Virus record (IMG/VR): IMGVR_UViG_3300017917_002230
Span: 1-23,390 of that record
Strand: one strand, 5' to 3'
Source of the DNA: a virus
DNA length: 23,390 bases
Part shown: in pieces, positions 3,547-21,559 of the stretch
Layout: each line of letters starts with the position of its first letter
How positions within the stretch are numbered: position 1 is the first letter of the stretch
Notes under the pieces: generated by a model
Database searches by the model: none
What the model was told of the DNA's origin: nothing
What the model saw: only the letters and a program-made list of their open reading frames with translations
Position numbers and translations under genes: made by a program

Positions 3547-3551
3547 CTAAA

Positions 3552-3947
3552 ATGAACAAGTTCCATAAAAGAATAACTAAAGCCGCCGATGGTACGGATT
3601 TTTGCCTCGTTTTAAGTGGGGGGACAGAATTTCTTGGAGATTTTTCCGAAATTTTCAATACTGTTTTTGTTTATAAGGAACACGATGCTATAGTTAAAAG
3701 AAAAAATATCATTTATCAAGAATTTTTTGATGAATTGATAAATCTACCAAAATTTAATCTGATTTTCACGGAGGTTAGTGGTGTAAAAAATCTAAGATTG
3801 GTGGAGAGGCTGTTAGTAAGACAGCATCCTACGATTATGATCTACACCGATAACTACATTGACAAAGAATTTTCAGAATTTTTAAAAAATTGCCAATATG
3901 TAATTGTTGACATAGGCAAGGGTAATCAAATATGGAAGAAAAAATGA
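3552..3947 (+). CDS. hypothetical protein upstream of glycosyltransferase
   Basis: Protein of 131 aa that I do not recognise. It alternates strands and helices: a Gly-rich turn LVLSGGTEFLG (about 19-29), strand VFVYKEHD, strand NLIFTEVSG, strand TIMIYTDNY and strand YVIVDIG near the end. This looks like a small Rossmann-type fold, possibly a degenerate or minimal methyltransferase-like domain, but no signature motif confirms it. It is the first of two plus-strand genes, and its stop overlaps the next start as ATGA (3944-3947), so it is translationally coupled to the glycosyltransferase. A role in the same sugar pathway is inferred from position only. No Shine-Dalgarno is visible before the ATG. 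Confidence 0.6.
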   Translation: MNKFHKRITKAADGTDFCLVLSGGTEFLGDFSEIFNTVFVYKEHDAIVKRKNIIYQEFFDELINLPKFNLIFTEVSGVKNLRLVERLLVRQHPTIMIYTDNYIDKEFSEFLKNCQYVIVDIGKGNQIWKKK

Positions 3948-6796: not shown

Positions 6797-6797
6797 T

Positions 6798-7568: not shown

Positions 7569-7569
7569 T

Positions 7570-9131: not shown

Positions 9132-9805
9132 AGATTGTGCTGCAAACAATAATCGGCATAGATTCTTTCTCTGTGCCACTCATCGCCCATTGGTGTGGTG
9201 GCAAATTCGTGGAAGCTAGGTGTTCCAAGAGTATAATGCAATAATTTAGCATCTGGATTCGCGCCGAACTCATCCGGTAGCCAATTCCAAATCTTAGGAA
9301 GTTCGCCAATTAAATCATCTGTAAGCCAAGTAAATCTATGTACCTGAGCACCTGTGGCCGTTTGTACAAATTCTGGTGTTACGACAGCATTTGCAGGATG
9401 ACTACAATTCCAAAGAATAACAGAACTCCAATTTTTACGCGGATAGTTCTCGTTCTTCGCTCCAAGATACTTTTCAGTAAGTCTGGTTTGATAATCGTGT
9501 TTAACGACTTGTACGGCTTTTGATTCATCTCTCAATTCCCATAATTTAGCGATGTCGTCACGCAATAGCATATCACCGTCCATGAATATAGCCCAACCTT
9601 GATAATTCATTAGATGGGGAACTAAAAATCTACTATAGATAAAATGATTACTACCGTCAGTGTGAGTTTCTTTATAATCTTTAAGTATGTTTAGTGCTAG
9701 AGGGCAGATACTAACTGGCTGACTAGATTGACGTATTATGCTGTTCGTACAGACATGATATGCTACTGCTTCTCTGGGATCATACCCTATAAAAATTGGA
9801 ATCAT
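9128..9805 (-). CDS. GT-A-type glycosyltransferase (GT8-like)
   Basis: Protein of 225 aa beginning MIPIFIGYDPREAVAYHV, a start typical of small GT8-like transferases. The donor and metal site is the DxD in WAIFMDGDMLLRDD (about 72-85). Later blocks SSVILWNCSHPANAVV and WLPDEFGANPDAKLLHYTLGTPSF contain the conserved N-C and the L-H-Y-T-x-G motif, whose histidine often completes the metal site in this clan. The ATG at 9805 is chosen because the family N-terminus begins there and it overlaps the upstream stop as ATGA; a longer frame to 9865 would add only residues encoded inside the previous gene. It is cytoplasmic, with no membrane segment. The sugar and acceptor are unknown. Confidence 0.85.
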   Translation of the reverse strand: MIPIFIGYDPREAVAYHVCTNSIIRQSSQPVSICPLALNILKDYKETHTDGSNHFIYSRFLVPHLMNYQGWAIFMDGDMLLRDDIAKLWELRDESKAVQVVKHDYQTRLTEKYLGAKNENYPRKNWSSVILWNCSHPANAVVTPEFVQTATGAQVHRFTWLTDDLIGELPKIWNWLPDEFGANPDAKLLHYTLGTPSFHEFATTPMGDEWHRERIYADYCLQHNL

Positions 9806-10569
9806 CTTCTTTCTATGTCCTCTTCTTCGCAATAGTCTCCGTATTGTATTTCTACAATTTTGCAAGGAACGTCATAAGGATTAAACAGTCTATGCCATTT
9901 GGTCCTCGGTACACGATACTCGTGATGCGTCATCAATGGAGTATGTACTAGGTATTCATCAGTTTCTATAGCATGACCGTGATGTTCTACCATACATTTT
10001 CCTTCAGATACTAACCAAATTTCAGTTCGATATTGATGTCGCTGTAGACTTAATGTCTGTCCAGGATTAACTGTCAGTTCTTTTACTTTGCATCCGGGAA
10101 GTTCGTGTAGCACACGATAGTATCCCCAAGGACGTTCAGTTTTAGGAGCTTTCCATTCAGTTAAAATCCATGAGCTTGAATTCTTTTTATCTTCACCGCC
10201 CACACCAAAAACAAATGTTAAGTTATGATCTACAACATCCATTTCTGGAATATTGTCCTTGGTGCGATCACCACCATTGGCGAAAATTAATTCTGCATCG
10301 GGATAATGCGCTCTAACCTGTTGAATGAAATGTTTGGCCGATCCGTCCTCATCGTCAAAGGTGTAGACTTCATCAACCATTGTAAGATTATTGATTATAC
10401 AAAGACGCTCATTCCAAGGCATGAACGCACGACCTTTTTTGCGAGTAAGCCAGTCGTCAGAATTTAATCCAACGATTAGCATATCGCCAAGAGTTTTTGC
10501 TGATTTAAAATAACTGATATGCCCCGAATGAATTGGGTCGAAGCCGCCCGTAACCAAGACTATTTTCAT
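9802..10569 (-). CDS. fused nucleotidyltransferase / ManC-type cupin
   Basis: Protein of 255 aa with two domains. Residues 1 to about 135 form a cytidylyltransferase-like domain: TGGFDPIHSGH (7-17) holds the HxGH nucleotide-binding motif, followed by MPWNERLCIINNL and FANGGDRTKDNIPE, as in glycerol-3-phosphate cytidylyltransferases and the adenylyltransferase part of HldE. Residues about 147-255 are a cupin like the C-terminal phosphomannose isomerase-type domain of ManC: ERPWGYYRVL, VKELTVNPGQTLSLQRHQYR, EIWLVSEGKCMVE and the end VEIQYGDYCEEEDIERR. The protein probably makes a nucleotide-activated sugar for the glycosyltransferases downstream. In ManC the partner is a GTP-dependent enzyme, so this pairing is unusual. 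It is the first gene of the glycan operon, and a perfect TATAAATA lies 5 nt before its ATG with no ribosome site. Confidence 0.85.
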   Translation of the reverse strand: MKIVLVTGGFDPIHSGHISYFKSAKTLGDMLIVGLNSDDWLTRKKGRAFMPWNERLCIINNLTMVDEVYTFDDEDGSAKHFIQQVRAHYPDAELIFANGGDRTKDNIPEMDVVDHNLTFVFGVGGEDKKNSSSWILTEWKAPKTERPWGYYRVLHELPGCKVKELTVNPGQTLSLQRHQYRTEIWLVSEGKCMVEHHGHAIETDEYLVHTPLMTHHEYRVPRTKWHRLFNPYDVPCKIVEIQYGDYCEEEDIERR

Positions 10570-10574
10570 AGTCT

Positions 10575-10582
10575 TATTTATA
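10575..10582 (-). promoter_or_regulatory. T4-type late promoter of the glycan operon
   Basis: Perfect TATAAATA on the minus strand, followed by AGACT and then the ATG at 10569. In T4 the box lies at about -13 to -6, so transcription would begin at the A of the ATG. No Shine-Dalgarno is visible between the box and the start. Confidence 0.7.
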
Positions 10583-10602
10583 TGGGTATATTATTGATAA
10601 AA

Positions 10603-11058
10603 TTAAAGAGTGGCGTCTTCTAAGCCGGAAGTCCTTAATTTAACGATATTACTTAATTGCCATTGTTTAATGTCTAGAGCTTTAATAATACCTAGCCATT
10701 TATTTCTTAGCAAAGCAAAGTCGTTGATAATCTTTTCAAAATCTACAACGTCAGCTTCGCCCTCTACAAACTTTTCACAGTCTCTAGAGGACAAGCTACG
10801 TTGATAGTTTTCGAGATACTTACGAAAGTGCTGACTACGAAGGCGTCTTAATTCAATATTAAGATATTCTAAGATGCCTTCGATTTCTTGAAGTTGGTTA
10901 AATCTGTTTTCAACGATTCCGGGCATTGCGGCTGCTGCCTTTTCGATATTTCCCGCTATACGGGTATCTTGTTTAGCCGCTATTAATTCGGCCTCATAAT
11001 ATGCCACAGCATCCGGGATATTAGAAATATCCCTTGAAACTTTATCGTACCAATTCAT
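10603..11058 (-). CDS. uvsY: UvsY-like recombination mediator (probable)
   Basis: Protein of 151 aa, mostly helical. The C-terminal stretch LLRNKWLGIIKALDIKQWQL followed by SNIVKLRTSGLEDA lines up with the end of T4 UvsY (ILLDFCSGALDAIKSRGFAI, then KHIQDMRAFEAG) in spacing and hydrophobic pattern. Length is close to T4 UvsY (137 aa). UvsY loads the UvsX recombinase onto gp32-coated single-stranded DNA, and this gene lies just downstream of the gp32 and UvsX genes, which supports the call. The N-terminal half has the conserved-looking blocks PGIVENRFNQLQEIEGIL and LNIELRRLRSQHFRKYL, which I recall from other T4-like phages without a firm name. Start and upstream stop share TAATG. Assignment rests on context and a weak C-terminal match. 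Confidence 0.6.
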   Translation of the reverse strand: MNWYDKVSRDISNIPDAVAYYEAELIAAKQDTRIAGNIEKAAAAMPGIVENRFNQLQEIEGILEYLNIELRRLRSQHFRKYLENYQRSLSSRDCEKFVEGEADVVDFEKIINDFALLRNKWLGIIKALDIKQWQLSNIVKLRTSGLEDATL

Positions 11059-11291
11059 TAATCCTCGTCTTCGTAATAGTCTTCATCTTCTTCGATCTCT
11101 TCGCCGTCGATGACATATTCAATAGCTTCATCTAGGTAAGGATCGACACCTAACAGACTTTCAATAGTCGACTCTTTGATTCCGTAGTCCATGAGTGTAT
11201 TGACAAAATCATGTGCTACATCTTTCTTTTGTTTTTCAGGAATGTGCTCTACTACAACATTCCACAAGTCGGCAATTAAATCTTCTTTCAT
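11058..11291 (-). CDS. small acidic conserved protein between uvsX and uvsY
   Basis: Protein of 77 aa. A helical N-terminal part (about 1-60; LIADLWNVVVEHIPEKQKK, then DVAHDFVNTLMDYGIKES) is followed by an almost wholly acidic tail (GEEIEEDEDYYEDED). Similar small proteins directly after uvsX are, from memory, common in aquatic T4-like phages, with no known role. The start overlaps the uvsX stop as ATGA and its own stop overlaps the next start as TAATG, so it is made together with both recombination proteins. The acidic tail recalls the C-terminal tails of single-stranded DNA-binding proteins that recruit partners or mimic DNA, so a modulator of UvsX is plausible but unproven. Confidence 0.75.
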   Translation of the reverse strand: MKEDLIADLWNVVVEHIPEKQKKDVAHDFVNTLMDYGIKESTIESLLGVDPYLDEAIEYVIDGEEIEEDEDYYEDED

Positions 11292-12370
11292 TGTGCGCTC
11301 TCCGGTTCAGGTACAACATCATTAGTAGTTATCTCAGAATTGACTTTTTCGCCATATTTAGAAATATCGTTCATGATGGCATCTAAACCACCATTCTCAT
11401 TTCTTTCCCAAGCCTTGCGGAACTGTTTGATAATTTCACCGTCCTTAGTTACATATACAAGACTATTTCCTTCTTTCTTGAGCATACCTTTAGCTTCTGC
11501 CAGATCTACCAGTCCGCTATACGGATTCATACCTGTTTCGTAAGGAATCTTAACCTGTACACTTTCAAACGGTTTAGCATAACGAGTTTTCATAATTTTA
11601 CAGGCAGCACGAATGCCTCGTACTTCTGTGATCTTATTGCCATCGTCATCTTCTTTGAGCTTGAGTTTCTTCATAGCTACAACGATACTTGACGCATAGA
11701 TAAAGCCTTGACCGCCGGAGATCTTGTCATCCGGATCAAACATATCTTGCGATGCGTATGTATGATTTGTAGCCACTAATCCGATGTTTAAGCTACCGAA
11801 CATATTAACACAATTGCGAACCAATGCTGTAAGTGCTTTAGGCTTACGACCCATATCACCTTTTAGATCGCCTGCTTCGAACTGATTAACATCAGTGGGT
11901 GTTAATAACATACCTAATGAATCTAATACAAATAAAACCTTAGGACGACTGTCTTCGGGCATTTGTTTATATTCAGCTACAAATTCTGTAATGGTTTTTG
12001 CCACGTCGTCGATCATTGCCATATTAAGTTTCAACAACTTATCTTCGGCCGTGTCAACGCCTAATGCTTTCAACCAATCTTCGTCAAGTGCGTTTTCAGT
12101 ATCAATCAAGATAGGATAGATACCCTGTGCCTGTGCTGCTTTGATTAGATTACCCGAACAGATATAAGATTTACCGGCGCCGGATTCACCAGCAAACACA
12201 GTAACCTTACCTAGCGGAACGCCTTTGTGAAAATCTCCGCTGATCAAATAGTTTAAGGCATAATTACCTGTTGAGACCCAATCAGTTGGGTCATTAAAAC
12301 CAATACTAAGTCCTTCAATTGACTTAGTAATTGATTTTCTAAATTTAGAAATATCAAATGCTTTTGCCAT
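11288..12370 (-). CDS. uvsX: UvsX RecA-like recombinase
   Basis: Protein of 360 aa. It is the phage strand-exchange recombinase, which forms ATP-dependent filaments on single-stranded DNA and starts recombination-dependent replication. Walker A is GESGAGKS (61-68), Walker B is in VLFVLDSLGML (about 149-159), an ATNHTY segment follows, and the DNA-binding loop region is KISGGQGFIYASSIVV. T4 UvsX is 391 aa, so this is a normal, slightly short member. I placed the start at the ATG at 12370 (MAKAFDISKF), which has AGGAAAAG before it. A longer frame to 12409 would run through the strong hairpin downstream of gene 32 and adds residues unlike the family. The gene is third-last in the leftward recombination block and overlaps the following small gene by 4 nt. 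Confidence 0.95.
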   Translation of the reverse strand: MAKAFDISKFRKSITKSIEGLSIGFNDPTDWVSTGNYALNYLISGDFHKGVPLGKVTVFAGESGAGKSYICSGNLIKAAQAQGIYPILIDTENALDEDWLKALGVDTAEDKLLKLNMAMIDDVAKTITEFVAEYKQMPEDSRPKVLFVLDSLGMLLTPTDVNQFEAGDLKGDMGRKPKALTALVRNCVNMFGSLNIGLVATNHTYASQDMFDPDDKISGGQGFIYASSIVVAMKKLKLKEDDDGNKITEVRGIRAACKIMKTRYAKPFESVQVKIPYETGMNPYSGLVDLAEAKGMLKKEGNSLVYVTKDGEIIKQFRKAWERNENGGLDAIMNDISKYGEKVNSEITTNDVVPEPESAQ

Positions 12371-12388
12371 ATTCTTTTCCTGTAGAAG

Positions 12389-12412
12389 AGAGTGCGAGTT
12401 TCCTCGCACTCT
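12389..12412 (-). terminator. GAAA-tetraloop hairpin between gene 32 and uvsX
   Basis: On the minus strand AGAGTGCGAG and CTCGCACTCT form a perfect 10-bp stem closed by the loop GAAA, a very stable GNRA tetraloop. The 3' flank is CTTCTACAGG, not a T-run, so full intrinsic termination is doubtful. It may end some gene 32 transcripts, lower uvsX expression relative to gp32, or protect the 3' end of gene 32 mRNA. Confidence 0.6.
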
Positions 12413-12423
12413 TTAGTTTATTA

Positions 12424-13404
12424 TTATTGACTCTGACGAGCGCGAATCTTGGCAAGGATGTCTTGCGCACGACTAGCACCATCCGATGTCGCTGCAGGTG
12501 CCTCTACTTTAGGAGTAGGTGCTGGCGCAGAAGCTGCTACCGGTTCGTCGTCATAATCTTCAGAAGATGACATTGTTTTTGTTTTGGCTACAGGATCGCC
12601 TGTGGCTGCGCCCATACCGGCCGGTTTGAAGTATTGACCCCAACGGTCCATGTCATAAGCTTCACCGTCAACGGAAGCTTCGAACATTTCTTTCATTACT
12701 TTGAGCTCAACATCAGTCGGCTTCTTGGGCAGGAATGCTGAAAGATCAAACAGACCGTACTGATTGATAGCTGCTTGTTCTTGTTCAGTTAAGGCACGCT
12801 CTCTACGACTCCACTTTGAAGTAGAATAATCTGCGAAGCCGCCTTTGCTGGTTTTAGCAATTCGGAAGTCAACGCCTTTGACATAATCAGTTGGCAACTC
12901 ATCCAACTCAGGATCCATTAGGGCGCCGCGAATCAATTGATAGATCTGAGGACCAATGATAAATCTACGGATAGGATTTTCAGGTGTCTTATCTTCTTTG
13001 ATAGGATCTTCAACAACAAAACCCTGGAAGATATATGAACGCTTCTTCCAATATTTACGACCCATATCTTCAAGCGATTTATCTTTAAACCAACCGCGAA
13101 CTTCTGATAAGATCGGGCAGACTGAACCGTCGTTGTACATTTCGACACAAGGTACCTGAACTTGTACTTGACGTGAATCTGTCTCGCCTTTGATTCCTGC
13201 AAACGGCAATTTGATCATTGCTCGTTCAACCCAGAAGAAAGTGTTGTTGGCATTGCCGTCAGGTAAGAACCGTACCACGGCTTCTTTGCCTTCTTGCATA
13301 TTCCAGTGTGGGTAAATTGCGTTGTCGCCGCCGCTTGATGTAGAGCCTGTGCTCTTGTTTTGTGCTTCTTGAAGTTTAGCACGAATTTCTGCTAGTGTTG
13401 CCAT
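12424..13404 (-). CDS. 32: gp32 single-stranded DNA-binding protein
   Basis: Protein of 326 aa (T4 gp32 is 301 aa). It coats single-stranded DNA cooperatively during replication, recombination and repair. The N-terminal region (1-25) has the basic and Ser/Thr-rich stretch needed for cooperativity. The core carries YPHWNMQEGKEAVVRFLP (31-48), FFWVERAMIKLPF, and a KKRS stretch at 120-123 in the place of the internal LAST motif. The C-terminal tail mixes acidic SSSEDYDDEP with an Ala/Pro-rich linker and ends with a short basic helix AQDILAKIRARQSQ. Only two cysteines (86 and 96) lie in the zinc-ribbon region and no nearby histidine is present, so the His-Cys3 zinc site of T4 appears incomplete. 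AAGGAGG precedes the ATG, and a structured leader lies upstream. Confidence 0.93.
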   Translation of the reverse strand: MATLAEIRAKLQEAQNKSTGSTSSGGDNAIYPHWNMQEGKEAVVRFLPDGNANNTFFWVERAMIKLPFAGIKGETDSRQVQVQVPCVEMYNDGSVCPILSEVRGWFKDKSLEDMGRKYWKKRSYIFQGFVVEDPIKEDKTPENPIRRFIIGPQIYQLIRGALMDPELDELPTDYVKGVDFRIAKTSKGGFADYSTSKWSRRERALTEQEQAAINQYGLFDLSAFLPKKPTDVELKVMKEMFEASVDGEAYDMDRWGQYFKPAGMGAATGDPVAKTKTMSSSEDYDDEPVAASAPAPTPKVEAPAATSDGASRAQDILAKIRARQSQ

Positions 13405-13442
13405 TTTATAGCCTCCTTATGCCTTAATTTAAATGACTTGAT

Positions 13443-13471
13443 ATATGCCTTTCGCATAAACATATTATGCG
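13443..13471 (-). promoter_or_regulatory. predicted pseudoknot in the gene 32 leader
   Basis: The minus strand has CGCATA/TATGCG as a stem (13471-13466 with 13458-13453; a seventh A-T pair is possible). The loop ATATG (13465-13461) is complementary to CATAT at 13447-13443, just after AAAGG. Together these can form an H-type pseudoknot 39-67 nt before the ATG. T4 gene 32 has a pseudoknot at a similar distance that nucleates gp32 binding and represses its own translation. The RNA between knot and ribosome site here is A/U-rich and looks unstructured, also as in T4. Stem 2 is short and the first loop is very tight. Confidence 0.5.
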
Positions 13472-13476
13472 CTTTT

Positions 13477-13484
13477 TATTTAGC
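13477..13484 (-). promoter_or_regulatory. putative late-type promoter of gene 32
   Basis: GCTAAATA on the minus strand, the same 8-mer as the box at 18491-18498. With 5 nt to +1 the transcript would begin near 13471, the first base of the leader stem, giving a 67-nt leader. Gene 32 may also have earlier promoters that I could not identify. Confidence 0.45.
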
Positions 13485-13521
13485 ATTTACAATATCTCTT
13501 GCAAGATTTTTTAGCCAAAAG

Positions 13522-13545
13522 AAAAGGCTCTAAAAAGAGCCCTTT
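13522..13545 (-). terminator. intrinsic terminator of the 60-aa peptide gene
   Basis: Stem GGCTCT/AGAGCC (13526-13531 with 13536-13541) and a 4-nt loop. On the minus strand it is followed by TTTTCTTTT. It ends transcription just after the stop codon of the secreted peptide gene and before the gene 32 promoter. Confidence 0.8.
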
Positions 13546-13557
13546 CAATCGCTCACA

Positions 13558-13740
13558 TTACTTCTTTGCTGCTTCTTTCTTTTCTTCTTTCTTAGCAGGG
13601 GCTGGTGCAGGAGCTGCTTTAGCATCCTTCGCCGGTGCTGCTGCTGGTGCTGCTGGTTTTGCTTCTTCTTTCTTAGCAGGTGCCTGAGCAAATGCTGTAG
13701 CTGCGAAAAGAGCAGCGGTTAATGCAACGATTGATTTCAT
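13558..13740 (-). CDS. small secreted Ala/Pro/Lys-rich peptide
   Basis: Protein of 60 aa. The first 18 residues, MKSIVALTAALFAATAFA, are a textbook Sec signal peptide with an A-F-A cleavage site before QAPAKKEE. The mature part of about 42 residues contains only Ala, Pro, Lys, Glu, Gln and Asp, with repeats of the type A-P-A-K-K-E-E. It should therefore be disordered, exported to the periplasm and rich in charge. Such short proteins are common in aquatic betaproteobacterial chromosomes (from memory), so host origin is possible. GGAG precedes the ATG. The gene stands alone between two intrinsic terminators with its own promoter and 5' hairpin, the arrangement of a moron (an added cargo gene). 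An antisense frame over the same bases is a shadow. Function is unknown; lysis, envelope protection and superinfection control are all possible. Confidence 0.8.
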   Translation of the reverse strand: MKSIVALTAALFAATAFAQAPAKKEEAKPAAPAAAPAKDAKAAPAPAPAKKEEKKEAAKK

Positions 13741-13763
13741 ATGAAAATCTCCATTTTGTTATT

Positions 13764-13794
13764 GTTGTCGAGATAATCGACAACTGTATATATA
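13764..13794 (-). promoter_or_regulatory. promoter and 5' hairpin of the 60-aa peptide gene
   Basis: TATATATA (13794-13787 on the minus strand) differs from the late box at one base. A sigma-70 reading is also possible: TTTACC about 18 nt upstream of TTATAT. Immediately downstream GTTGTCGA/TCGACAAC forms a perfect 8-bp stem with a 5-nt loop (13764-13784), near the predicted 5' end of the mRNA. It could stabilise the mRNA or be an operator for a dimeric repressor. Confidence 0.45.
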
Positions 13795-13830
13795 ACGCAG
13801 TAGAGTGGTGGTTGGTAAACGTGATTTGGT

Positions 13831-13853
13831 AAAAAAGGGCGATCTAGTCGCCC
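13831..13853 (-). terminator. intrinsic terminator after the 573-aa gene
   Basis: GGGCGA/TCGCCC stem (13837-13842 with 13848-13853) with a 5-nt loop, followed on the minus strand by TTTTTT. It ends the packaging transcription unit 8 nt after the stop codon. Confidence 0.82.
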
Positions 13854-13860
13854 ATTTATA

Positions 13861-15582
13861 TTACCATTGTGCCAATTCTTTAATTCTTGACAGTTCTGCC
13901 AATTCTGGATTTTGTTCTGTTGTTTGCTGTGGAGCCATTCTTTCAACAAATTTTCTAGCAACATGTTCTGCCTGTTCACCAAACTTCTTGCCTACCATTG
14001 TGCAAACGCCTTCTGGTCCTTTAGGGAATGTGCCTGATTCTTTATCGTAAAATGATTGAATAAATTCTGCCAGTTCTTGTACGTTAAGTTTTTTTGGTTC
14101 TGCCTCTTGATCCATGTCTGCCATCTGTGGTTCTTCTGCCGGTACTTCGTCGGCGGCTGGAACTTCCTCGCCTGGTTCGGTCATGTCACCAAAATCTAAT
14201 TTGCTTACTACATCAGGAGCATTGTCCTCTAGCCATTGTTTTACTAATGGACGTACACATTGATCTGGATCTTCTTTGGCAGCATCCTTGATCTGCCTAA
14301 ATAATTCAGGGTCATCAATTATGCCTTTAAGACTTTCAATTGCATTGCTTCCGTCGACGCCTGCAGGAAAATGCTCTCCTACTAGTTCTTGTAATTGTTT
14401 AATTGCATCTGCCTGTTCTTCTGCATCTTGACTAGTGATAGCACTTTCTTCGCCTAATGACATCACCCAAGATTCAAATTTTTCAAAATCATCTATTTGT
14501 TCGGAAACTTCTAAGTCATCGTGAATCTCTTCTTCTTGACCGGAAGTCATAGCGACTATGTCGTCATAGCCTAAGGTATTTCCTTCTTGCATTAGTCTGT
14601 ATAAAACAGGAAATACAGATTTAATATCTTCTTTAAAATTACGAACTGTGAATTTTTCTTTGAAGTCTTCAACTACTTCTTCTGGAATCTCCATTTGTTC
14701 GCGAGCCTGAAAACTTTCTCTGTATGTTTCGTAATGACTTTGTTTTGCCAGTGCTTTGATCTGTTCGCGTAAATTGTTTAATGCCTCTGTGCTTCTTTCT
14801 ACTATGCTGTTGGTATCGCTGTTCATTAGATCGTTGCGAACAACATAGTTTGAAAAACTTTTTAGTTGAGCGATTTCTTCACTCATTTGAATAATGCTTT
14901 TGCCGAGATCATCATAGGGTAAGCCGCCATTAGCAACGTGACGCTGCATCGCACGAGCACCGGCTAAATGTATGAATGGATATTTAAATCTTTCACCGTC
15001 TTGATTTTCAACAAATAACGCAGAAATGTTTCGAGTTCTTGCGCCCGGTTGAGTATCGTCTACTAGTGCTTGACTATGCTTGATAATCAAACGTGTATCC
15101 ATTAATTTTTGATAGCTGACGGTTTTAGTTCCGTACATCGCGCTTTCATTCATAACACTTTCTCCGACTGGTTTTATGATATCTGTAGATGTTTGTGGCT
15201 TTGGTTGAGCATTTTGACTCAAAAATGCATAGTCTCTTTTATCGAGATTATCTTTAGCGATATCTCTGGTATCAAAAGCCATTAGACGCCTTTTAGCGAA
15301 TTTTCTTAATTCTCTCAAAAATCCGTACCAATTGTCTTTCTGTGATTCTTCCATCGATTCTGTAATACCAGTACTAAAATAAACTTTCATTGAATTTGGT
15401 TCGGCGAGACTGATACTAACGTGTCCCAATGGGGTTTCTCCCTCCATATAATCAAAATCAAAAAATCTAGCTTCTTCTGGATTGATGGTGATAGCACCGT
15501 CTTCTGCACCTAATTTTAGGCCGGAAAAACGGCTGCGTATTTTATAGAAAAGATCTGTTGAAATATTGTTTCTTGCGTCCAT
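13861..15582 (-). CDS. conserved phage protein after large terminase, probable virion protein
   Basis: Protein of 573 aa from the ATG at 15582. The N-terminal 120 residues form a mixed alpha/beta region with strands such as LGHVSISLAEPNSMKVYFST and a basic block FAKRRLMAFDTRD. The middle (about 160-330) is helical, and residues 350-500 are highly acidic with a Pro/Glu-rich linker (GEEVPAADEVPAEEPQ). The last 70 residues hold a compact segment, FIQSFYDKESGTFPKGPEGV then KKFGEQAEHVARKFVERM. I recall related large proteins near the terminase in aquatic T4-like phages, but no function. A TTG at 15597 could extend it by five codons, but a late promoter box (15588-15595) lies between and ends 5 nt before the ATG, so ATG is preferred. 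A structural or scaffold-associated role is inferred from position. Confidence 0.75.
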   Translation of the reverse strand: MDARNNISTDLFYKIRSRFSGLKLGAEDGAITINPEEARFFDFDYMEGETPLGHVSISLAEPNSMKVYFSTGITESMEESQKDNWYGFLRELRKFAKRRLMAFDTRDIAKDNLDKRDYAFLSQNAQPKPQTSTDIIKPVGESVMNESAMYGTKTVSYQKLMDTRLIIKHSQALVDDTQPGARTRNISALFVENQDGERFKYPFIHLAGARAMQRHVANGGLPYDDLGKSIIQMSEEIAQLKSFSNYVVRNDLMNSDTNSIVERSTEALNNLREQIKALAKQSHYETYRESFQAREQMEIPEEVVEDFKEKFTVRNFKEDIKSVFPVLYRLMQEGNTLGYDDIVAMTSGQEEEIHDDLEVSEQIDDFEKFESWVMSLGEESAITSQDAEEQADAIKQLQELVGEHFPAGVDGSNAIESLKGIIDDPELFRQIKDAAKEDPDQCVRPLVKQWLEDNAPDVVSKLDFGDMTEPGEEVPAADEVPAEEPQMADMDQEAEPKKLNVQELAEFIQSFYDKESGTFPKGPEGVCTMVGKKFGEQAEHVARKFVERMAPQQTTEQNPELAELSRIKELAQW

Positions 15583-15587
15583 AGTTA

Positions 15588-15595
15588 TATTTATC
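15588..15595 (-). promoter_or_regulatory. T4-type late promoter of the 573-aa gene
   Basis: GATAAATA on the minus strand, followed by TAACT and the ATG at 15582. The box overlaps the stop codon of the terminase gene. No ribosome site lies at a usable distance; AGGA is about 20 nt away. Confidence 0.6.
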
Positions 15596-17180
15596 AAAAT
15601 CCTGTACTAATGAATATTGGCATAGGCATCTGTTCCTCTGTAATTTTTTCTGTCATTTTGTCATAGATTTTAGGGTCCCAGTCGCTGAGAACGTTGGCCA
15701 TGCGTATGATCAGTAGAGTTGCAGATACCAGATCGTCGTGTTCTCCTGTTTTCGCCCCAAAACCCACACCGTGAGCCACGAATGTTTTTAGTTCTGAAAT
15801 CAAGGGTTTTGACCTTAAAATCATTTTATAAGTTTCTATCATATTTTTAAGTTGGCTACAGGCTGTAATTTTAGTTCTGTGGGTGGTGTTAAATCCTTTA
15901 CGGAATTTACGGATATGACCCTTGCGTATAGGTTCACTTAAAAATAAACCGTGAAAATTCTCTTCTCCTATATCACCGATAACTATCAATGCTGCTTCAC
16001 CTAGTGTGTTATTTTCAACGCTATAATAGATCTGTGGTGTACCGCCTTTTTCCTGGCCTCGATCATTGATATACTTTAAAATTTCTCGCATGTGTTTAAC
16101 CTGGGCTTGGATGGGTGTTAGATTGTGACGCCATTCTGCAACCTGTTCCATTGAAGGCATTTCAAATACCTGGATGGCTCCGTAGTCGCCGCCCGTGCCT
16201 AAACTAGGGTCTAATGCAACTAGATATGTGGCTTTAGGATCTATGTCTTTATACCATCGAGTCTGCCCCATAGTCATTACCGGGTCTACGCCTGATAATT
16301 CAGATAATTTAACTGCATTAATCAGTGTTTCATCAAAGATTAAAAATTCACAATCAAATTCTCTGCGAAAACGCTCGTCGCCAATCTTAGCACGTTCAAT
16401 TTTTGCCCATTCTTCGTCACGGTCTGGATGCTCTGACCAATGGGCAAAATAACTGTAGAATCCGTTGGTGCCTAATTTACTTTCGTTTCCGTACTCGTCA
16501 AATTTCTTATTAGCTTCGGTCCAAATTAGAGCGAACTGGTCTTCGTCTGAGTTTGGTGTTGAAGTGATAATACATTTACCGCCAGTGGACAATGTCGGAG
16601 ATAGTGCAGTCCAAAACTCTTTGGCTTTCTCCGGTGGTTGCACGAATGCAAACTCATCGCAATAAATTAAAGAAAGGGATTTACCACGGCCGGTGTTTTC
16701 TGTAGTTGTTACTGCTTGAATACGTGCTCCGTTATCATATTCAATTGTATTTCTGTTATATGAATATACGCCAGCGCGAATAAAGTCAGGCAAGTTTTCG
16801 TAACCAAAGCGGTAACGATTCATGATATCCTGTGCGCCTTCCATTTTATGGGCGGCGATTAGTACCTGCGCTTCTGGTACAAACATTGTATACCATAATA
16901 GGTAACCTGTAGCACAGGTTGTCTTACCCATCTGACGAGGTAACATAGCGATACATTGCTTATTCTCATGATAAGCCTGAATCAACCTTTCTTGATATTC
17001 GTAAGGATCAAACATAATAGCACCGCGTACAGGGTGCTGGATCTTTAAGAAATTTCTACAGAAGTACAACGGACCTGTAACAGGGTCCATACATGCTTCT
17101 AGATGTTTAACTTCTTCTAGTGTATATCTTTCAGGCTTGTGTGCCTTTTTGATTAGGTTGCCGTCTAGTGATTTTGCCAT
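15594..17180 (-). CDS. 17: gp17 large terminase subunit (ATPase and nuclease)
   Basis: Protein of 528 aa (T4 gp17 is 610 aa). It is the DNA packaging motor: an N-terminal ATPase pumps DNA into the prohead and a C-terminal nuclease cuts the concatemer. Walker A PRQMGKTT is at 81-88, with the adenine-binding Y-Q pair at 62-63. Walker B LIYCDEF ends in D175-E176, and the coupling motif TSTPN is at 206-210. The nuclease acidic residues are D324 in VALDPSLGTGGDYG, E389 in YSVENNTLGEA and D482/D483 in GEHDDLVSA, equivalent to D401, E458 and D542 of T4. All key residues are present, so it should be active. The start is preceded by a late promoter box 5 nt away and no ribosome site. Confidence 0.96.
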   Translation of the reverse strand: MAKSLDGNLIKKAHKPERYTLEEVKHLEACMDPVTGPLYFCRNFLKIQHPVRGAIMFDPYEYQERLIQAYHENKQCIAMLPRQMGKTTCATGYLLWYTMFVPEAQVLIAAHKMEGAQDIMNRYRFGYENLPDFIRAGVYSYNRNTIEYDNGARIQAVTTTENTGRGKSLSLIYCDEFAFVQPPEKAKEFWTALSPTLSTGGKCIITSTPNSDEDQFALIWTEANKKFDEYGNESKLGTNGFYSYFAHWSEHPDRDEEWAKIERAKIGDERFRREFDCEFLIFDETLINAVKLSELSGVDPVMTMGQTRWYKDIDPKATYLVALDPSLGTGGDYGAIQVFEMPSMEQVAEWRHNLTPIQAQVKHMREILKYINDRGQEKGGTPQIYYSVENNTLGEAALIVIGDIGEENFHGLFLSEPIRKGHIRKFRKGFNTTHRTKITACSQLKNMIETYKMILRSKPLISELKTFVAHGVGFGAKTGEHDDLVSATLLIIRMANVLSDWDPKIYDKMTEKITEEQMPMPIFISTGF

Positions 17181-17185
17181 ATGAC

Positions 17186-17193
17186 TATTTACT
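17186..17193 (-). promoter_or_regulatory. T4-type late promoter of gene 17
   Basis: AGTAAATA on the minus strand, followed by GTCAT and then the ATG at 17180. It lies directly downstream of the terminator at 17194-17222, so gene 17 starts a new transcription unit. Confidence 0.6.
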
Positions 17194-17222
17194 GAAAAAA
17201 ATAGGCTCCGTAGAGCCTATTT
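17194..17222 (-). terminator. intrinsic terminator upstream of gene 17
   Basis: AAATAGGCTC/GAGCCTATTT stem of about 10 bp (17199-17208 with 17213-17222) with a 4-nt loop. On the minus strand it runs into a T-tract. It ends the unit carrying the 230-aa gene. Confidence 0.85.
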
Positions 17223-17237
17223 GAATATTAGATTTGA

Positions 17238-17930
17238 TTATTTAGATTTGGCTTCTTCTAATCGTTGTTTTAATTCGGTTTTAATCCAAGCTCGCAACTC
17301 TTCACCTTCCATTGCCATTGGATTATCTCCTTGCTTGTAACTATGCTTGAACATTTTCTTTTGACCATTCATTCCGCCGGCTAGCTTGTTAACCATGTAG
17401 TCGGTATCTTTGAATTCTGGATCTTCCTGTGACCCGTCTGGACTATTTGCCCATTCGTCTTTTTTCTTTTCATCATCGTCAGATTTTTCATCGTCAGATT
17501 TTTCATCATCAGAATCCATTGCTTTGCTAATAATGTCGATCTTGTTATCAGCATCATTGTCGCTAGGACCTCCCATATTATCTGCATCTGGTTCTGGATG
17601 ATCGTCTTTATCTAAATCCGGTAACATCTTTAATGGAGGCATAGCAGGCTTAATGCTAGTAATGCTCGGAGGCATACTTAGGCTCGGTAAAGGAGGCATT
17701 TCTGGTTTGCCCATGTCTGGATTTACTTTTGTAATCAGCTTTAAAAGGTCTTCGATGTTGTCCATGCCTTGAGCATTTAAATTCACACTCATACTTGGCG
17801 GTGCCACAGGCGGAGTTGATGGTGTTGGGGGCATTCCCATTGGTGCGCCGCAATTCTCAGCAGCAGGTACTGTTTCGGCCACAGGACGATCTAGTTCCTG
17901 CATTCTTGCTAGTAATTGATTGAAATCCAT
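17238..17930 (-). CDS. Pro-rich, acidic low-complexity conserved protein
   Basis: Protein of 230 aa that I cannot name. A short N-terminal helix (MDFNQLLARMQELDRP) is followed by a Pro/Met-rich disordered region (about 28-110; PSTPPVAPPSMS, PEMPPLPSLSMPPS). Then comes an acidic Asp/Ser/Lys region containing the tandem pentapeptide SDDEK (about 140-156). The end is more ordered, with DTDYMVNKLAGGMNG and a charged helix GEELRAWIKTELKQRLEEAK. A long disordered centre between two short conserved ends suggests a linker, tether or scaffold-like assembly protein, and its place between the two terminase genes fits head assembly (inference). GGGAG lies 7 nt before the ATG, one of the clear ribosome sites in this block. 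Its gene is followed by a strong terminator. Confidence 0.7.
   Translation of the reverse strand: MDFNQLLARMQELDRPVAETVPAAENCGAPMGMPPTPSTPPVAPPSMSVNLNAQGMDNIEDLLKLITKVNPDMGKPEMPPLPSLSMPPSITSIKPAMPPLKMLPDLDKDDHPEPDADNMGGPSDNDADNKIDIISKAMDSDDEKSDDEKSDDDEKKKDEWANSPDGSQEDPEFKDTDYMVNKLAGGMNGQKKMFKHSYKQGDNPMAMEGEELRAWIKTELKQRLEEAKSK
17473..17502. repeat. two tandem 15-nt repeats encoding SDDEK
   Basis: Unit TCATCGTCAGATTTT occurs twice (17473-17487 and 17488-17502), with a partial degenerate third copy to 17514. It lies inside the 230-aa gene, keeps the frame, and encodes a disordered acidic stretch. Copy number may vary by slippage. Confidence 0.8.
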
Positions 17931-17933
17931 TTA

Positions 17934-18485
17934 TTAACTCCCTATGGCGCTTTTAGCACCAGCTTTATCTTCTTTTGATTTTGGTAATTTGTATTCCCCA
18001 GTGCCGCTATCTTTCTTACGATCTTTAGCAGACTTGGATAAATCTTTTAAGAAACTTTTATTAAAGTCGTCACCGAAATAATCTTTGGCTTTGACTTTGT
18101 CATTGTATTCTGGTTCTTCCAGGATCGCTTCGCCAGTTCCTTCGATATTAAAATTAGCATGTTCTGCTTCTGCAGGATCGCCACCGTTTCTAACTCGTAG
18201 ATGACTTTCTGGAACTAGACACTTAATTCTTTCTAGAATCTGCGGAGCTGTAGTTGGGTATTCGCAAACCACTTCAAACACATGAACTTCCATATTACTT
18301 AACTGTGGAAAATCTAAAGGCTGTGCTTGAATCGGGGTTTTTGATTTTTCGACCAAAGTAGCTTTACAATATCCTAGATATTCTTTGACTTTTTTGACAA
18401 ATCCTTCAGGTAACTCTCCAGCTACTTTAATACGAAACGGATAGGTCTTTTTACTTTCGGTAAGATATTCTGTAAAAGTTTTCAT
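17934..18485 (-). CDS. conserved phage protein between gp16 and gp17 genes
   Basis: Protein of 183 aa starting MKTFTEYLTESKKTYPFRIK. Residues about 15-105 look like a small alpha/beta domain with strands at FRIKVAGEL, ATLVEKSK, MEVHVFEVVCEYP and SHLRVRN. The C-terminal 75 residues are charged and Lys-rich (FLKDLSKSAKDRKKDSG) and probably disordered. The MKTFxEYLxE opening is a short motif I recall from several head-associated proteins of aquatic T4-like phages, but I give no function. A late promoter box (18491-18498) ends 5 nt before the ATG. AAGGG is too far upstream (about 16 nt) to act as the ribosome site. The next gene starts 3 nt after the stop. Confidence 0.72.
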   Translation of the reverse strand: MKTFTEYLTESKKTYPFRIKVAGELPEGFVKKVKEYLGYCKATLVEKSKTPIQAQPLDFPQLSNMEVHVFEVVCEYPTTAPQILERIKCLVPESHLRVRNGGDPAEAEHANFNIEGTGEAILEEPEYNDKVKAKDYFGDDFNKSFLKDLSKSAKDRKKDSGTGEYKLPKSKEDKAGAKSAIGS

Positions 18486-18490
18486 AGTAG

Positions 18491-18498
18491 TATTTAGC
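18491..18498 (-). promoter_or_regulatory. T4-type late promoter of the 183-aa gene
   Basis: GCTAAATA on the minus strand, followed by CTACT and the ATG at 18485. The extended match TAAATACTA is close to the T4 extended late consensus. The box overlaps the stop codon of the gp16 gene. Confidence 0.6.
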
Positions 18499-18976
18499 CC
18501 TTTTGACCTAATTTCTTAAGCAACTCGTTGCGATCAGTTATAATATAACCCTGGCCGTTGATTACGTCGTTTGGGTCTTCGTTGTTGTCTTTGTCGATCT
18601 TATATTTTTTTAATTGTAGATCGATAGCTTTGAGCTTTTTCTCGATTTTAGCATTTTTAGCGTTAATAGCATTACCCATCATACTAGCAGCTACTTCAAA
18701 TATACGTCCAGAATAACGTACTTCTACATTCATACCTAGATCCATTAAATCGTCATAGGCAGCTTCTGCCTTGCTGGCAAGAGAATCTAGCTCTTTTTCG
18801 TCTAGATCGTCTAGCTCTTTTATCTGCGGTAATCCTCTGGTGATTTCAGCGACCGCTTTATAGCTGTCATCAAGACTTTTAACTTGCTCGTGACTAGGTT
18901 TTTCTGTTTCGGGAGCCGGTACCGTAGCAGGACTCGATTCTTCTAGATTAAAAAGTTCTTCTAATTTTTTAGTCAT
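18494..18976 (-). CDS. 16: gp16 small terminase subunit
   Basis: Protein of 160 aa (T4 gp16 is 164 aa). The small terminase binds phage DNA as a ring and stimulates the gp17 ATPase to begin packaging. The N-terminal 35 residues are acidic and Pro-rich (ESSPATVPAPETEKPSHE). The central region has the family pattern: DSYKAVAEITRGL, then VRYSGRIFEVAASMMGNAIN, then NAKIEKKLKAIDLQLKKYK, that is, two long helices of the oligomerisation core. The end NGQGYIITDRNELLKKLG matches the C-terminal GQMNI..VFMGSPTELMDEIG segment of T4 gp16 in layout. Position beside gp4 and just upstream of gp17 supports the call. No strong ribosome site precedes the ATG. Confidence 0.82.
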   Translation of the reverse strand: MTKKLEELFNLEESSPATVPAPETEKPSHEQVKSLDDSYKAVAEITRGLPQIKELDDLDEKELDSLASKAEAAYDDLMDLGMNVEVRYSGRIFEVAASMMGNAINAKNAKIEKKLKAIDLQLKKYKIDKDNNEDPNDVINGQGYIITDRNELLKKLGQKG

Positions 18977-18983
18977 AATGTAC

Positions 18984-19424
18984 TTATCGACGTTTGCCGC
19001 CTTGATGGAAAATATCGCCTTCGTTTACTACCCTAAACTTGATGCCTTGTTGTTTACACCAAGCTGTTGCTGCTTCCCATTTAGCCATATTTTTAACATA
19101 TTGTTGTTGATTATATGCACTCTTACCCACTGCTTCTTTTAAAGTGTGATTACTAGGTTTTACCTCTACGACTTCGGCATGTTTCTTACCATTTTTATCG
19201 TTATACACAATAAAAAAATCCGGAACATATATTGTATATTTTCCAGTTAACGGATCTCTATAAGGTATTTGTATGCTTTCGCTAGCCCATTTTTCAACAC
19301 CCTGATGCTCATCCAACATTCGCATAAAAACAAATTCCCAACTGCTACGAGCCAATGGTGCTTTCTTTCCGACATATTTGTCTGGATTTTTCATCTCGAA
19401 TCGACCCTGGGCAAATTTAACCAT
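18984..19424 (-). CDS. 4: gp4 head completion protein (endonuclease-like fold)
   Basis: Protein of 146 aa, close to T4 gp4 (150 aa; also called gp50/65). It acts on filled heads before tail joining. The match is good: opening G-R-x-x-x-K-N-P-D-K-Y-V-G against K-W-V-P-K-N-I-S-K-Y-R-G, then SSWEFVFMRMLDEHQGVEKWASE, IPYRDPLTGK, YVPDFFIVYNDKNGKKHAEV, then VVEVKPSNH, and later KWEAATAWCKQQGIKFRVVNEGD. The PDF...EVKP pattern is the active-site signature of the TnsA-like nuclease fold, with D69 and the E/K pair in VEVKP as likely catalytic residues. It may trim DNA at the portal. The gene follows its neighbour with a 4-nt gap. Confidence 0.88.
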   Translation of the reverse strand: MVKFAQGRFEMKNPDKYVGKKAPLARSSWEFVFMRMLDEHQGVEKWASESIQIPYRDPLTGKYTIYVPDFFIVYNDKNGKKHAEVVEVKPSNHTLKEAVGKSAYNQQQYVKNMAKWEAATAWCKQQGIKFRVVNEGDIFHQGGKRR

Positions 19425-19428
19425 ATCG

Positions 19429-19800
19429 TTACGCTGAAATGTTTCTTATCTGATCGCTTTTACTTACGCTGTTGGTTCTAAACCCTAAAGTCGACGAGGG
19501 ATTTCTATTATTGTTTAATATTTCACCAATTAAAGAACTTAACTGTAAACCATTAAGAGTTTTTAAAGAATCAAGTAATGTGAATACCGGAACACCATCT
19601 ATCTTAGCCTGTCTTAATATCACTGAAGCAGTGATCTGTGCCGCTTCTTTTCCAAATCCATTAGATTCGAAAAAACCGACTGCGGCTGAAACTTCATTAG
19701 CAGAAAATTCTAAGGGCTCTTTTCCGTATTGATCAAAAAATAGTTTGGTACCGTCGGCGCTGTCGGTATTGCCTTGTACTGGTAGATTAGTAATTGCCAT
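19429..19800 (-). CDS. small conserved phage protein after tube-like gene
   Basis: Protein of 123 aa, mostly helical: FFDQYGKEPLEFSANEVSAA, VGFFESNGFGKEAAQITASV, ILRQAKIDGVPVFTLLDSLK, then LQLSSLIGEILNNNR. The end SSTLGFRTNSVSKSDQIRNI is a polar tail. I recall closely similar proteins at this place in cyanophage-type T4-like genomes, where they are usually listed as virion structural. No enzymatic motif is present. It begins 2 nt after the stop of the tube-like gene and is probably translated from the same late mRNA. A role in the tail or neck is likely from position only. Confidence 0.75.
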   Translation of the reverse strand: MAITNLPVQGNTDSADGTKLFFDQYGKEPLEFSANEVSAAVGFFESNGFGKEAAQITASVILRQAKIDGVPVFTLLDSLKTLNGLQLSSLIGEILNNNRNPSSTLGFRTNSVSKSDQIRNISA

Positions 19801-19802
19801 AA

Positions 19803-20870
19803 TTAAAATTTCTTCTGTGTAGCTGTAGTGCCGCCTGCGCCTTGAGTATTAGAAGGAAAAAGAGAACCAACTACTCCGCTGACAGTATTCACTGCTCCTC
19901 TGATATTAGAGGGACTGGTTAAGATATTAATAGCTTCCGATTTTAAACCTTCCTTAGAAAGTCGCCCAGCATTATTATAGGTATTAGCGGCCGCTATAGC
20001 AGTTCCTAAAAAACCACCCACTGAGCCAAAAGCTGATCCGTTTCCTACAGCACCAAATACTTGACTAATGCCGTCAAGCACTCCACCGTCACCGGTGAGT
20101 CTAGCTACGCCTCCTCCAGCTACGCTAAGAGGACTAGGTGTTACATCGTAATGAAGGGTCGCAAACCCTTTAGGATTATTAACACTGACATTTCCTGAAG
20201 TATATCGCACGGCCTCGTATTGTATAGTCATCTGGCTTTCTAACACGTCTGCTTCTGAATAAGCAACATTTCCGTGTGACCAATTTTGTATTCTAGGATT
20301 AACTAAGGTATAACCATTAAATCTCTTTCTGCTTAATGTATAAATGCTGATACTTTTAAAAATATCAACACTTTTGTCATTATCAAGACCATAACGAAAT
20401 TCATCTAAAGGTCCGTACTGCGGTCGGTATTTTGTTTCTGAATATGCAGCATCTGGCAATGCTCTATCTTGAAAATAATAACCATAATAGATAGCCCACA
20501 AAGCATTAATAATTCCAGCATTGTCATCATGGAATGACATTGTTATAGGATCATAGGTTATATTTTTATAAATTAATTTTTTTCTGTTATATTGATTCTT
20601 AGTTACTGTGTCAATTGTAAACTTGGGAAGATCTGTTCCTTTGATCAGAAATCCTACTTCATTGGAATGCTTTTCTGTAAAAACATTTGATTTAACCACG
20701 CTTCGATCTAGCTCAAATTGAGCATAGAACATGAACTTGGTTCGAGGCGCGAGCCTATAGTTGTCATCAATAAACAACCGTGTGGCATGTTGCCAATTGG
20801 CCATATTGCCTTTAGGATTTAAAAGGCCGCCGACGAACCCTTGGGTTAGATATCTCACGAATTTATTCAT
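19803..20870 (-). CDS. second tail-tube-fold protein (gp19/gp54-like)
   Basis: Protein of 355 aa. Residues about 40-235 have the layout of a phage tail tube domain: PRTKFMFYAQFELDRS, EVGFLIKGTDLPKFTIDT, YNRKKLIYKNITYDPITMSF, HDDNAGIINALWAIYYGYYF and DVLESQMTIQYEAVRYTSG. The C-terminal 110 residues are Gly/Ala/Ser-rich (GGGVARLTGDGGVLDG, GSAFGSVGGFLGTAIAAA), resembling the flexible end of the T4 tube initiator gp54. It could cap or initiate the tube, or form a special ring. It lies one gene downstream of gp19, behind a terminator and with its own late promoter, so it is expressed separately from the main tube protein. Fold assignment is likely; equivalence to gp54 is uncertain. Confidence 0.7.
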   Translation of the reverse strand: MNKFVRYLTQGFVGGLLNPKGNMANWQHATRLFIDDNYRLAPRTKFMFYAQFELDRSVVKSNVFTEKHSNEVGFLIKGTDLPKFTIDTVTKNQYNRKKLIYKNITYDPITMSFHDDNAGIINALWAIYYGYYFQDRALPDAAYSETKYRPQYGPLDEFRYGLDNDKSVDIFKSISIYTLSRKRFNGYTLVNPRIQNWSHGNVAYSEADVLESQMTIQYEAVRYTSGNVSVNNPKGFATLHYDVTPSPLSVAGGGVARLTGDGGVLDGISQVFGAVGNGSAFGSVGGFLGTAIAAANTYNNAGRLSKEGLKSEAINILTSPSNIRGAVNTVSGVVGSLFPSNTQGAGGTTATQKKF

Positions 20871-20875
20871 ACTAA

Positions 20876-20883
20876 TATTTATG
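20876..20883 (-). promoter_or_regulatory. T4-type late promoter of the tube-like gene
   Basis: CATAAATA on the minus strand, followed by TTAGT and the ATG at 20870. It lies immediately downstream of the terminator of the gp18-gp19 unit. No Shine-Dalgarno is visible. Confidence 0.65.
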
Positions 20884-20886
20884 TCA

Positions 20887-20912
20887 CAAAAAAACCCGCT
20901 TCTGCGGGTTTC
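20887..20912 (-). terminator. intrinsic terminator of the gp18-gp19 unit
   Basis: AAACCCGC/GCGGGTTT stem (20892-20899 with 20904-20911) with loop TTCT (AGAA on the minus strand). It is followed on the minus strand by TTTTTTT, with no T-run missing. It lies 18 nt after the gp19 stop codon. Confidence 0.88.
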
Positions 20913-20929: not shown

Positions 20930-21559
20930 TTAACCGTTGAAGGCGCCTTGACCTGTAATCGCTTCGCCGACTGTTCTTGCAACCACAGTTCCGATACCAA
21001 CTGTTCCTGCTGAATGGATAGCATTATCAAATCTAATTGTTAACGCTACAGTAGCTGGTTCGTTAGTGCCGTAGTTTAGATCACCGTAGTCTGCGTTCTG
21101 TACAAAACAACCATAGCATTCAAATGTCTCAAGAACGCTGGCTGCACCAGTACCGCCGTTGCCGCCGTCTAATACTTCAATCTTAGTAGTAAACTTGTAG
21201 TCAACACCAGAACGAGCACTTGCCTGTTCCATAAAGTCAAATTGCTTCTGGATTTGTTGACCAACTAGCTTGGTAACATTACCACTTGCATCATCGCGTA
21301 GTGTCAATGTCATTGTTTCCCAGCTGTATTTGCCAGCTAGATAAACACGTGAGTTGTACACAGGGATGTCCATTTCTTCAAAAGAAACTTTAGGTCTTGT
21401 AACATCCATGACCTGTTTGGTTAATTCTGTGCTCGGCTCAACACCAAAACCTAAAAGAATCACTCTAAAGCGATATTTTAGTTTTGGCATTAACAAGCTC
21501 TGGTTACTACCAGGGCCTGCTGTCTGCACAGAGTAATTATTTAATGATGTAATTGCCAT
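20930..21559 (-). CDS. 19: gp19 tail tube protein
   Basis: Protein of 209 aa (T4 gp19 is 163 aa). It stacks as hexameric rings to form the inner tail tube through which DNA passes. Typical segments are LMPKLKYRFRVILLGFG (about 23-39), MDVTRPKVSFEEMDIPVYNS, VYLAGKYSWETMTLTLRDDA, VLETFECYGCFVQNADYG and EPATVALTIRFDNAIHS. The extra length relative to T4 is mainly in the N-terminus and a Gly-rich insert GGNGGTGAAS. AGGAGA lies before the ATG, a clear ribosome site, and the gene starts 2 nt after the sheath gene, so sheath and tube are made from one mRNA. Being next to gp18 confirms the assignment. Confidence 0.93.
   Translation of the reverse strand: MAITSLNNYSVQTAGPGSNQSLLMPKLKYRFRVILLGFGVEPSTELTKQVMDVTRPKVSFEEMDIPVYNSRVYLAGKYSWETMTLTLRDDASGNVTKLVGQQIQKQFDFMEQASARSGVDYKFTTKIEVLDGGNGGTGAASVLETFECYGCFVQNADYGDLNYGTNEPATVALTIRFDNAIHSAGTVGIGTVVARTVGEAITGQGAFNG

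Follow-up and report, generated by a model that had tools for sequence, protein, structure and literature searches.

A T4-type late promoter box five nucleotides before the start codon points to leaderless late mRNAs in a group of T4-type phages and in Pelagibacter phages

The viral DNA considered here, positions 1 to 23,390 of IMG/VR record IMGVR_UViG_3300017917_002230 (23,390 nucleotides (nt), referred to as the window), contains five minus-strand genes in which the sequence TAAATA stands exactly 5 nt upstream of an ATG. The original prediction, that such genes give rise to leaderless late mRNAs, was built on ATGs at 20870, 18485, 17180, 15582 and 10569, and all five sites are real: T precedes the ATG at 5/5 of them, long frames of 183-573 amino acids (aa) open from every one, and AUG is the start codon of all five genes. 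The gene at 19803-20870 encodes a tail-tube-like protein of 355 aa (phrog_4542 tail tube, E 1.8e-9); its late promoter box CATAAATA lies at 20876-20883, 5 nt before the ATG, and is directly preceded by an intrinsic terminator after gp19 (20888-20910; 7-bp hairpin, T7) whose U-run ends 6 nt before TAAATA. A virion structural protein of 183 aa (17934-18485; phrog_14802, E 7.2e-9) follows the box GCTAAATA at 18491-18498, in which the TAA of the box is also the stop codon of the preceding gene. The large terminase subunit gp17 (15594-17180; phrog_36964, E 6.6e-119) has the box AGTAAATA at 17186-17193, 5 nt before its ATG, again directly preceded by an intrinsic terminator (17195-17220; 8-bp hairpin, T7), here with a U-run that stops 3 nt short of TAAATA. 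The next gene, which encodes a virion structural protein of 573 aa (13861-15582; phrog_13484, E 1.2e-13), has the box GATAAATA (15588-15595), and this box overlaps the final part of the terminase stop codon, TGA. The fifth gene, a cytidylyltransferase-cupin fusion at the head of a glycan operon (9802-10569; PF01467 and PF01050), is the only one with a perfect late promoter box (TATAAATA at 10575-10582, 5 nt before the ATG at 10569), while the TAAATA core is common to all five. All of these features lie on the minus strand, all five genes are predicted to be leaderless, and the products of four of the five are assigned by PHROG to head, tail or packaging.

The layout TAAATA-N5-ATG is found five times in the window compared with 0.55 expected (100 dinucleotide shuffles, largest 3). 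At positions -11 to -6 of the window's start-like ATGs, TAAATA is the commonest 6-mer, with 5/51 occurrences versus 0.02 expected from its 6-mer frequency. The spacing searches in other sequences demanded an ATG, and outside the window the AUG start codon is therefore not independent evidence. The earlier claim that the five genes have no Shine-Dalgarno (SD) sequence holds for the predicted mRNAs, provided that the first transcribed nucleotide (+1) is the A of the ATG; the gene at 18485 nevertheless carries AAAAGGG at -19 to -13, upstream of its box, which could be used on a read-through mRNA only.

A terminase search of IMG/VR gave 78 related loci, which together with the window amount to 79 sequences (1.02 Mb, not de-duplicated). 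In this set, the distance from TAAATA to ATG is 5 nt in 252 cases and 4 nt in 52 cases; among the other distances up to 60 nt, 54 cases fall at 31 nt, 36 at 45 nt and no more than 34 at any of the rest. The sharp peak at 5 nt that the original prediction had called for in wider sequence was therefore found. The smaller excess at 31 nt drops from 54 to 8 when only start-like ATGs are counted, in a somewhat different set. After filtering, with start-like ATGs only, four loci replaced by whole records and near-identical sites removed, 336 sites within 45 nt of an ATG remain, of which 123 are at 5 nt, 38 at 4 nt and 17 at 6-9 nt. All of the 21 long records carry the pattern (152 matches versus 19 in the reversed control), although some of them, e.g., G002 and G003, are near copies. 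No relative turned up when genome contigs were scanned with the terminase for hints of a host.

The layout is conserved gene by gene. In the orthologue counts, the start was taken as the start codon nearest the aligned start, ignoring the box; sequences were dropped if they lay too near a contig end, lacked a start codon close to the aligned start or had a match that began after residue 25, and the window is counted in each set. The box was found at 4-6 nt in 67/71 terminase sequences, in 49/49 scored sequences of the tube-like protein, in 68/71 of the 15582 structural protein (4-5 nt) and in 25/26 of the cytidylyltransferase (4-5 nt). The 18485 structural protein is more variable, with the box 4-6 nt from the ATG in 43/61 sequences, 18-26 nt from it in 14 and another arrangement in four. 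Indeed, some orthologues switch between a short-spaced and a leadered form. Upstream of the terminase in L020 (match at 10001), the terminator and the box are present as in the relatives, yet 15 nt including AGGA separate the box from the ATG; this is a natural leadered version.

The genes that had been named as contrasts keep to the other arrangement. The gene for the single-strand binding protein gp32 (12424-13404, minus strand) has an SD and no box in the window, and among its orthologues short spacing occurs in 0/61, an SD in 61/61 and no box within 45 nt in 61/61. Likewise, the tail tube gene gp19 (20930-21559, minus strand), which is leadered with an SD, shows 0/47 at 4-6 nt and an SD in 47/47, with a box 12-45 nt upstream in 20/47, and the gene for a 230-aa protein shows 0/43 short-spaced and an SD in 42/43. 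No short-spaced form was seen for uvsX (0/49) or uvsY (0/37), which have no box within 45 nt in 49/49 and 37/37 sequences, respectively. The box thus precedes late, structural genes and not replication genes (gp32, uvsX, uvsY), although some of the relatives' genes with the layout are not structural. Three further genes of the structural region of the window are rarely or never short-spaced (2/57 for a 160-aa gene, 0/55 and 0/53 for two others).

In T4 late promoters, TATAAATA occupies positions -13 to -6 relative to the transcription start (excerpts of PMC1524935 and PMC2988020). With the box at these positions and a spacer of 5 nt, +1 would therefore be the A of the ATG, as the original prediction had proposed, and this predicted start is supported by the geometry of the T4 box (excerpt of PMC1524935). 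The same genomes contain a second class of boxes, situated 15-34 nt upstream of the ATG and often with an SD in between, and the box therefore behaves as a T4-type late promoter. In the filtered set, an SD motif within -16 to -4 was found at only 8/123 sites with 5-nt spacing and 4/38 with 4-nt spacing, compared with 19/41 when the box lies at 18-22 nt and 50/71 at 23-34 nt. The proposal of two initiation modes is borne out to the extent that leadered late promoters with an SD coexist with the short-spaced ones in the same genomes. A homologue of the late sigma factor is present in four of eight related records, with E values from 4.0e-25 (phrog_234) to 6.5e-80 (phrog_12791). Positions -13 and -12 of the box are relaxed in these phages.

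We consider it very probable that the short-spaced boxes are late promoters of the gp55 type which have the A of the ATG as +1 and would yield leaderless late mRNAs, an estimate that covers leaders of 0-3 nt. In this model, NNTAAATA at -13 to -6 would be the site at which polymerase with the phage late sigma factor binds, and transcription would start at the A of the ATG, so that the mRNA would begin with 5'-AUG without a leader; ribosomes binding the 5'-terminal AUG would then start translation. The same genomes keep a second class of late promoters, with the box 15-34 nt before the ATG and in many cases an SD in the interval. The exact 5' end and the mode of ribosome binding are the parts of this model that we infer, the former from the T4 geometry, from adjoining terminators and from divergent gene pairs.

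An intrinsic terminator is located upstream of 56/161 short-spaced sites, and 52 of these have a U-run ending 2-9 nt short of TAAATA. At leadered sites the count is 2/120, and shuffled upstream sequences gave 1.2 terminators on average and at most 4. The terminator before the terminase gene was found in 62/67 short-spaced sequences, and its stems change on both sides (e.g., GGCTC/GAGCC, GGGCC/GGCCC and GCGCC/GGCGC); for the tube-like gene at 20870, a hairpin with a U-run was detected in 34/49. As these terminators abut the box, upstream transcripts should mostly end just before it, and a U-run so near TAAATA would leave almost no room for a leader.

These terminators bear on the possibility that the genes are translated mostly from read-through polycistronic mRNAs, by coupling to the upstream gene, with the leaderless transcript a minor product. 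Such coupling would fit the overlap of the upstream stop codon with the box at 18485 and 15582, and an SD-like motif is found just upstream of the box in 24/43 short-spaced orthologues of the 18485 gene. It is at odds with the terminators directly upstream of 17180 and 20870, conserved in the proportions given above, and with phage HTVC008M and its relatives, in which the short-spaced genes gp2 and gp4 diverge and there is no same-strand upstream gene to couple to. As a general explanation we hold coupling to be improbable, although translation from read-through mRNA may add to expression at 18485 and 15582. Still less credible, and in our judgement very improbable, is that TAAATA at -11 to -6 acts in translation, for instance as an A/U-rich binding site for the ribosome or S1, instead of as a promoter. 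The fixed distance from the ATG and the scarcity of SD motifs at such sites (8/123) would be expected of an element of this kind; however, the same box is found 15-34 nt upstream of genes with an SD, orthologues keep it whether or not an SD leader separates it from the ATG, terminators lie directly upstream of it and it matches the core of the T4 late promoter.

The precise start is a finer question. At the 123 sites with 5-nt spacing, a pyrimidine precedes the ATG in 98% (T in 83%, C in 15%); the two corresponding positions after T4's 32 perfect boxes hold T in 53% and then a purine in 81%. AGT is favored immediately before the ATG in both the 4- and 5-nt classes (161 clade sites), with A at -3 in 54% of the 5-nt sites (n = 123) and 68% of the 4-nt sites (n = 38) and G at -2 in 35% and 55%, respectively. 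This preference is shared by both spacing classes and is therefore tied to the ATG rather than to the box. A variant of the preferred reading, which we regard as possible but unlikely, is that these are late promoters whose transcripts start 1-3 nt further upstream, e.g., at the A of AGT-ATG, and thus carry a tiny leader. The enrichment of A at -3 and G at -2 in both classes and the very existence of the 4-nt class speak for it, but the third position after the T4 box is likewise rich in A (56% of 32) and transcription there starts six bases after the box.

Several observations weigh against late promoters with +1 exactly at the ATG. The AGT enrichment in both classes makes a start at -3 possible, in the 4-nt class +1 would miss the T4 geometry by one base, and 74 leadered sites with an SD show no clear pyrimidine-purine step at positions 5 and 6 after the box. 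No terminator was detected in the approximately 50 nt examined upstream of 105/161 short-spaced sites. Coupling could operate at two of the five window genes (18485 and 15582), which abut the gene upstream. Finally, no late sigma hit was obtained in four of the eight related records, which are the shorter ones (66-86 kb), the carriers being the four longest.

The layout is found in this group of T4-type phages and, separately, in Pelagibacter phages. In HTVC008M, TAAATA occupies the layout position at 11/263 start-like ATGs (0.17 expected), and 12 of its 14 pattern sites are annotated starts. Six of these genes are annotated as virion assembly functions (DNA end protector, head completion, tail-tube-associated baseplate, baseplate wedge, tail completion and tape measure), which we take to be gp2, gp4, gp48, gp25, gp3 and the tape-measure gene in T4 numbering; the other six encode a phytanoyl-CoA dioxygenase, a curli CsgF protein, an adenylate/guanylyl cyclase and three hypothetical proteins. 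The 26 bp over which gp2 and gp4 diverge (L158:18917-18942) are made up entirely of two head-to-head boxes and two 5-nt spacers. The same 26-bp gap exists in seven close relatives of HTVC008M; other relatives have a different gap or gave no clear starts. For gp48, 64 of 80 relatives could be scored, and all those with at least 40% identity (57/57) have the 5-nt layout; among seven more distant ones, whose starts are less certain, one has the layout and six have the box 20-26 nt upstream, four of them with an SD. The co-activators gp33 and gp45 are present in HTVC008M (PHROG).

Phages Mosig and Melnitz show the layout at 5/295 and 3/336 start-like ATGs, respectively, compared with 1/388 in T4 and 0/382 in Syn9. 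The gp2 gene is short-spaced in HTVC008M, Mosig and Melnitz, and gp3 in HTVC008M and Mosig, with the box 22 nt upstream in Melnitz. When pattern matches over the whole record of each named phage were compared with the reversed control, the counts were 14 versus 4 in HTVC008M, 11 versus 3 in Mosig, 10 versus 5 in T4 and 5 versus 3 in Melnitz. Matches were few in RB49 and OLIVR5 (4 versus 0 each) and in pf16 and D507 (2 versus 0 each). The counts for the other phages were as follows: KVP40 (2 versus 2), Vibrio phage 2.275.O (3 versus 3), Syn9 (3 versus 3), P-SSM2 (6 versus 6), S-PM2 (5 versus 3), AG-345-F15 (2 versus 3), phiM12 and DLP6 (0 versus 0 each) and Vi01 (0 versus 2). PA5oct, the nearest named phage by terminase, gave 15 versus 12 and has the layout at 2/171 start-like ATGs in 100 kb; it was not counted as a carrier. 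The window terminase is 53% identical to that of PA5oct and 33% to that of Syn9, and the HTVC008M terminase is approximately 64-68% identical to those of cyanophages among the matches listed. In a terminase tree of 19 rows, which has long branches and weak forks and in which we set the layout label per phage, for Melnitz on weak grounds, the well-supported branches require this label to have changed at least twice, a result that we treat as a lead.

Among known systems, the late promoters of T4, which depend on gp55, gp33 and gp45, share the TAAATA core, the same offset from the predicted start and the position upstream of structural genes, as well as a late sigma factor, a homologue of which was found in the relatives of the window. 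T4 differs in that the box mostly lies approximately 21-29 nt before the ATG, and its leader between late box and ATG holds the SD. The late promoters of cyanophages and Melnitz, NATAAATA, have the same motif (excerpt of PMC2984593); the Melnitz gp2 orthologue shares the 5-nt layout, but most Melnitz and Syn9 boxes are further upstream. For Melnitz, 15 late promoters were reported, and the excerpt of that report mentions "leaderless" solely in the title of a reference (PMC9004378). Leaderless mRNAs are present in bacteria, such as mycobacteria, and in phages. In these mRNAs the start codon is 5'-terminal or nearly so and there is no SD, as predicted here. Lambda cI is a named example, and 70S ribosomes bind an AUG that is located at the 5' end or close to it (excerpt of PMC9031893). 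Unlike these cases, the phages studied here would use leaderless starts for a recurring class of late genes controlled by a phage sigma factor, with a class of leadered late genes alongside, as judged from sequence. In phiKZ, which has its own polymerase, the late promoter motif is TATG and transcription starts at the G (excerpt of PMC4666361); the T before the ATG in 83% of the 123 sites resembles this contact of promoter and TATG, although the promoters here would instead combine a TAAATA box with a sigma factor of the gp55 type. Full-text literature searches returned no recognizable account of this layout or of leaderless late genes in T4-type phages.

Several further genes deserve mention. 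The glycan operon (8367-10569, minus strand) had been proposed to be translated leaderless; this remains the prediction for its first gene, an HldE-like cytidylyltransferase fused to a mannose-6-phosphate isomerase-type cupin, but the layout is present at that gene only. A family 8 glycosyltransferase gene and a polysaccharide pyruvyl transferase-like gene come next, and the four genes that follow (4786-8379) gave no Pfam hit. Between the 573-aa structural protein gene and gp32, a 60-aa Ala/Lys/Pro-rich protein with a signal-peptide-like start is encoded at 13558-13740 (minus strand), with GGAG upstream. In L094, a frame of 111 aa (3439-3771, minus strand), on the strand opposite to its short-spaced neighbors, also has the 5-nt layout; similar frames occur in G001 (81635), G004 (123893) and G005 (44951), and the copy in G002 matches HNH endonuclease families.

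The short-spaced genes encode minor assembly and packaging proteins, a head-tail adaptor, a baseplate connector, an HNH endonuclease, a kinase and products of unknown function. An SD leader precedes the capsid gene gp23 in HTVC008M, Mosig, Melnitz, Syn9, G001, G002 and G004 and, in HTVC008M and Mosig, also the sheath and tube genes gp18 and gp19. It is conceivable, and we put it forward only tentatively, that at least two T4-type lineages separately made late promoters leaderless and that the two modes set dose, many minor assembly proteins (terminase, gp2, gp3, gp25, gp48 and the head-tail adaptor) being leaderless and major ones (capsid, sheath and tube) leadered with a strong SD. Virion copy numbers are the background to this idea, and dose control itself is what we infer. 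HTVC008M speaks against a simple dose rule, for there portal gp20, protease gp21 and baseplate gp8 are leadered with an SD and the terminase has no box.

If the preferred reading is true, a conserved class of leaderless late genes in T4-type phages would mean that one late sigma factor can serve two modes of initiation in the same virus. The layout may explain why late promoter prediction was unsuccessful in pelagimyophages, as stated in an excerpt of PMC7029224. The rule could be used to annotate the start codons and promoters of many environmental phages, and HTVC008M and Mosig, together with the recorded host Pelagibacter HTCC1062, constitute an isolated system in which such late genes could be studied.

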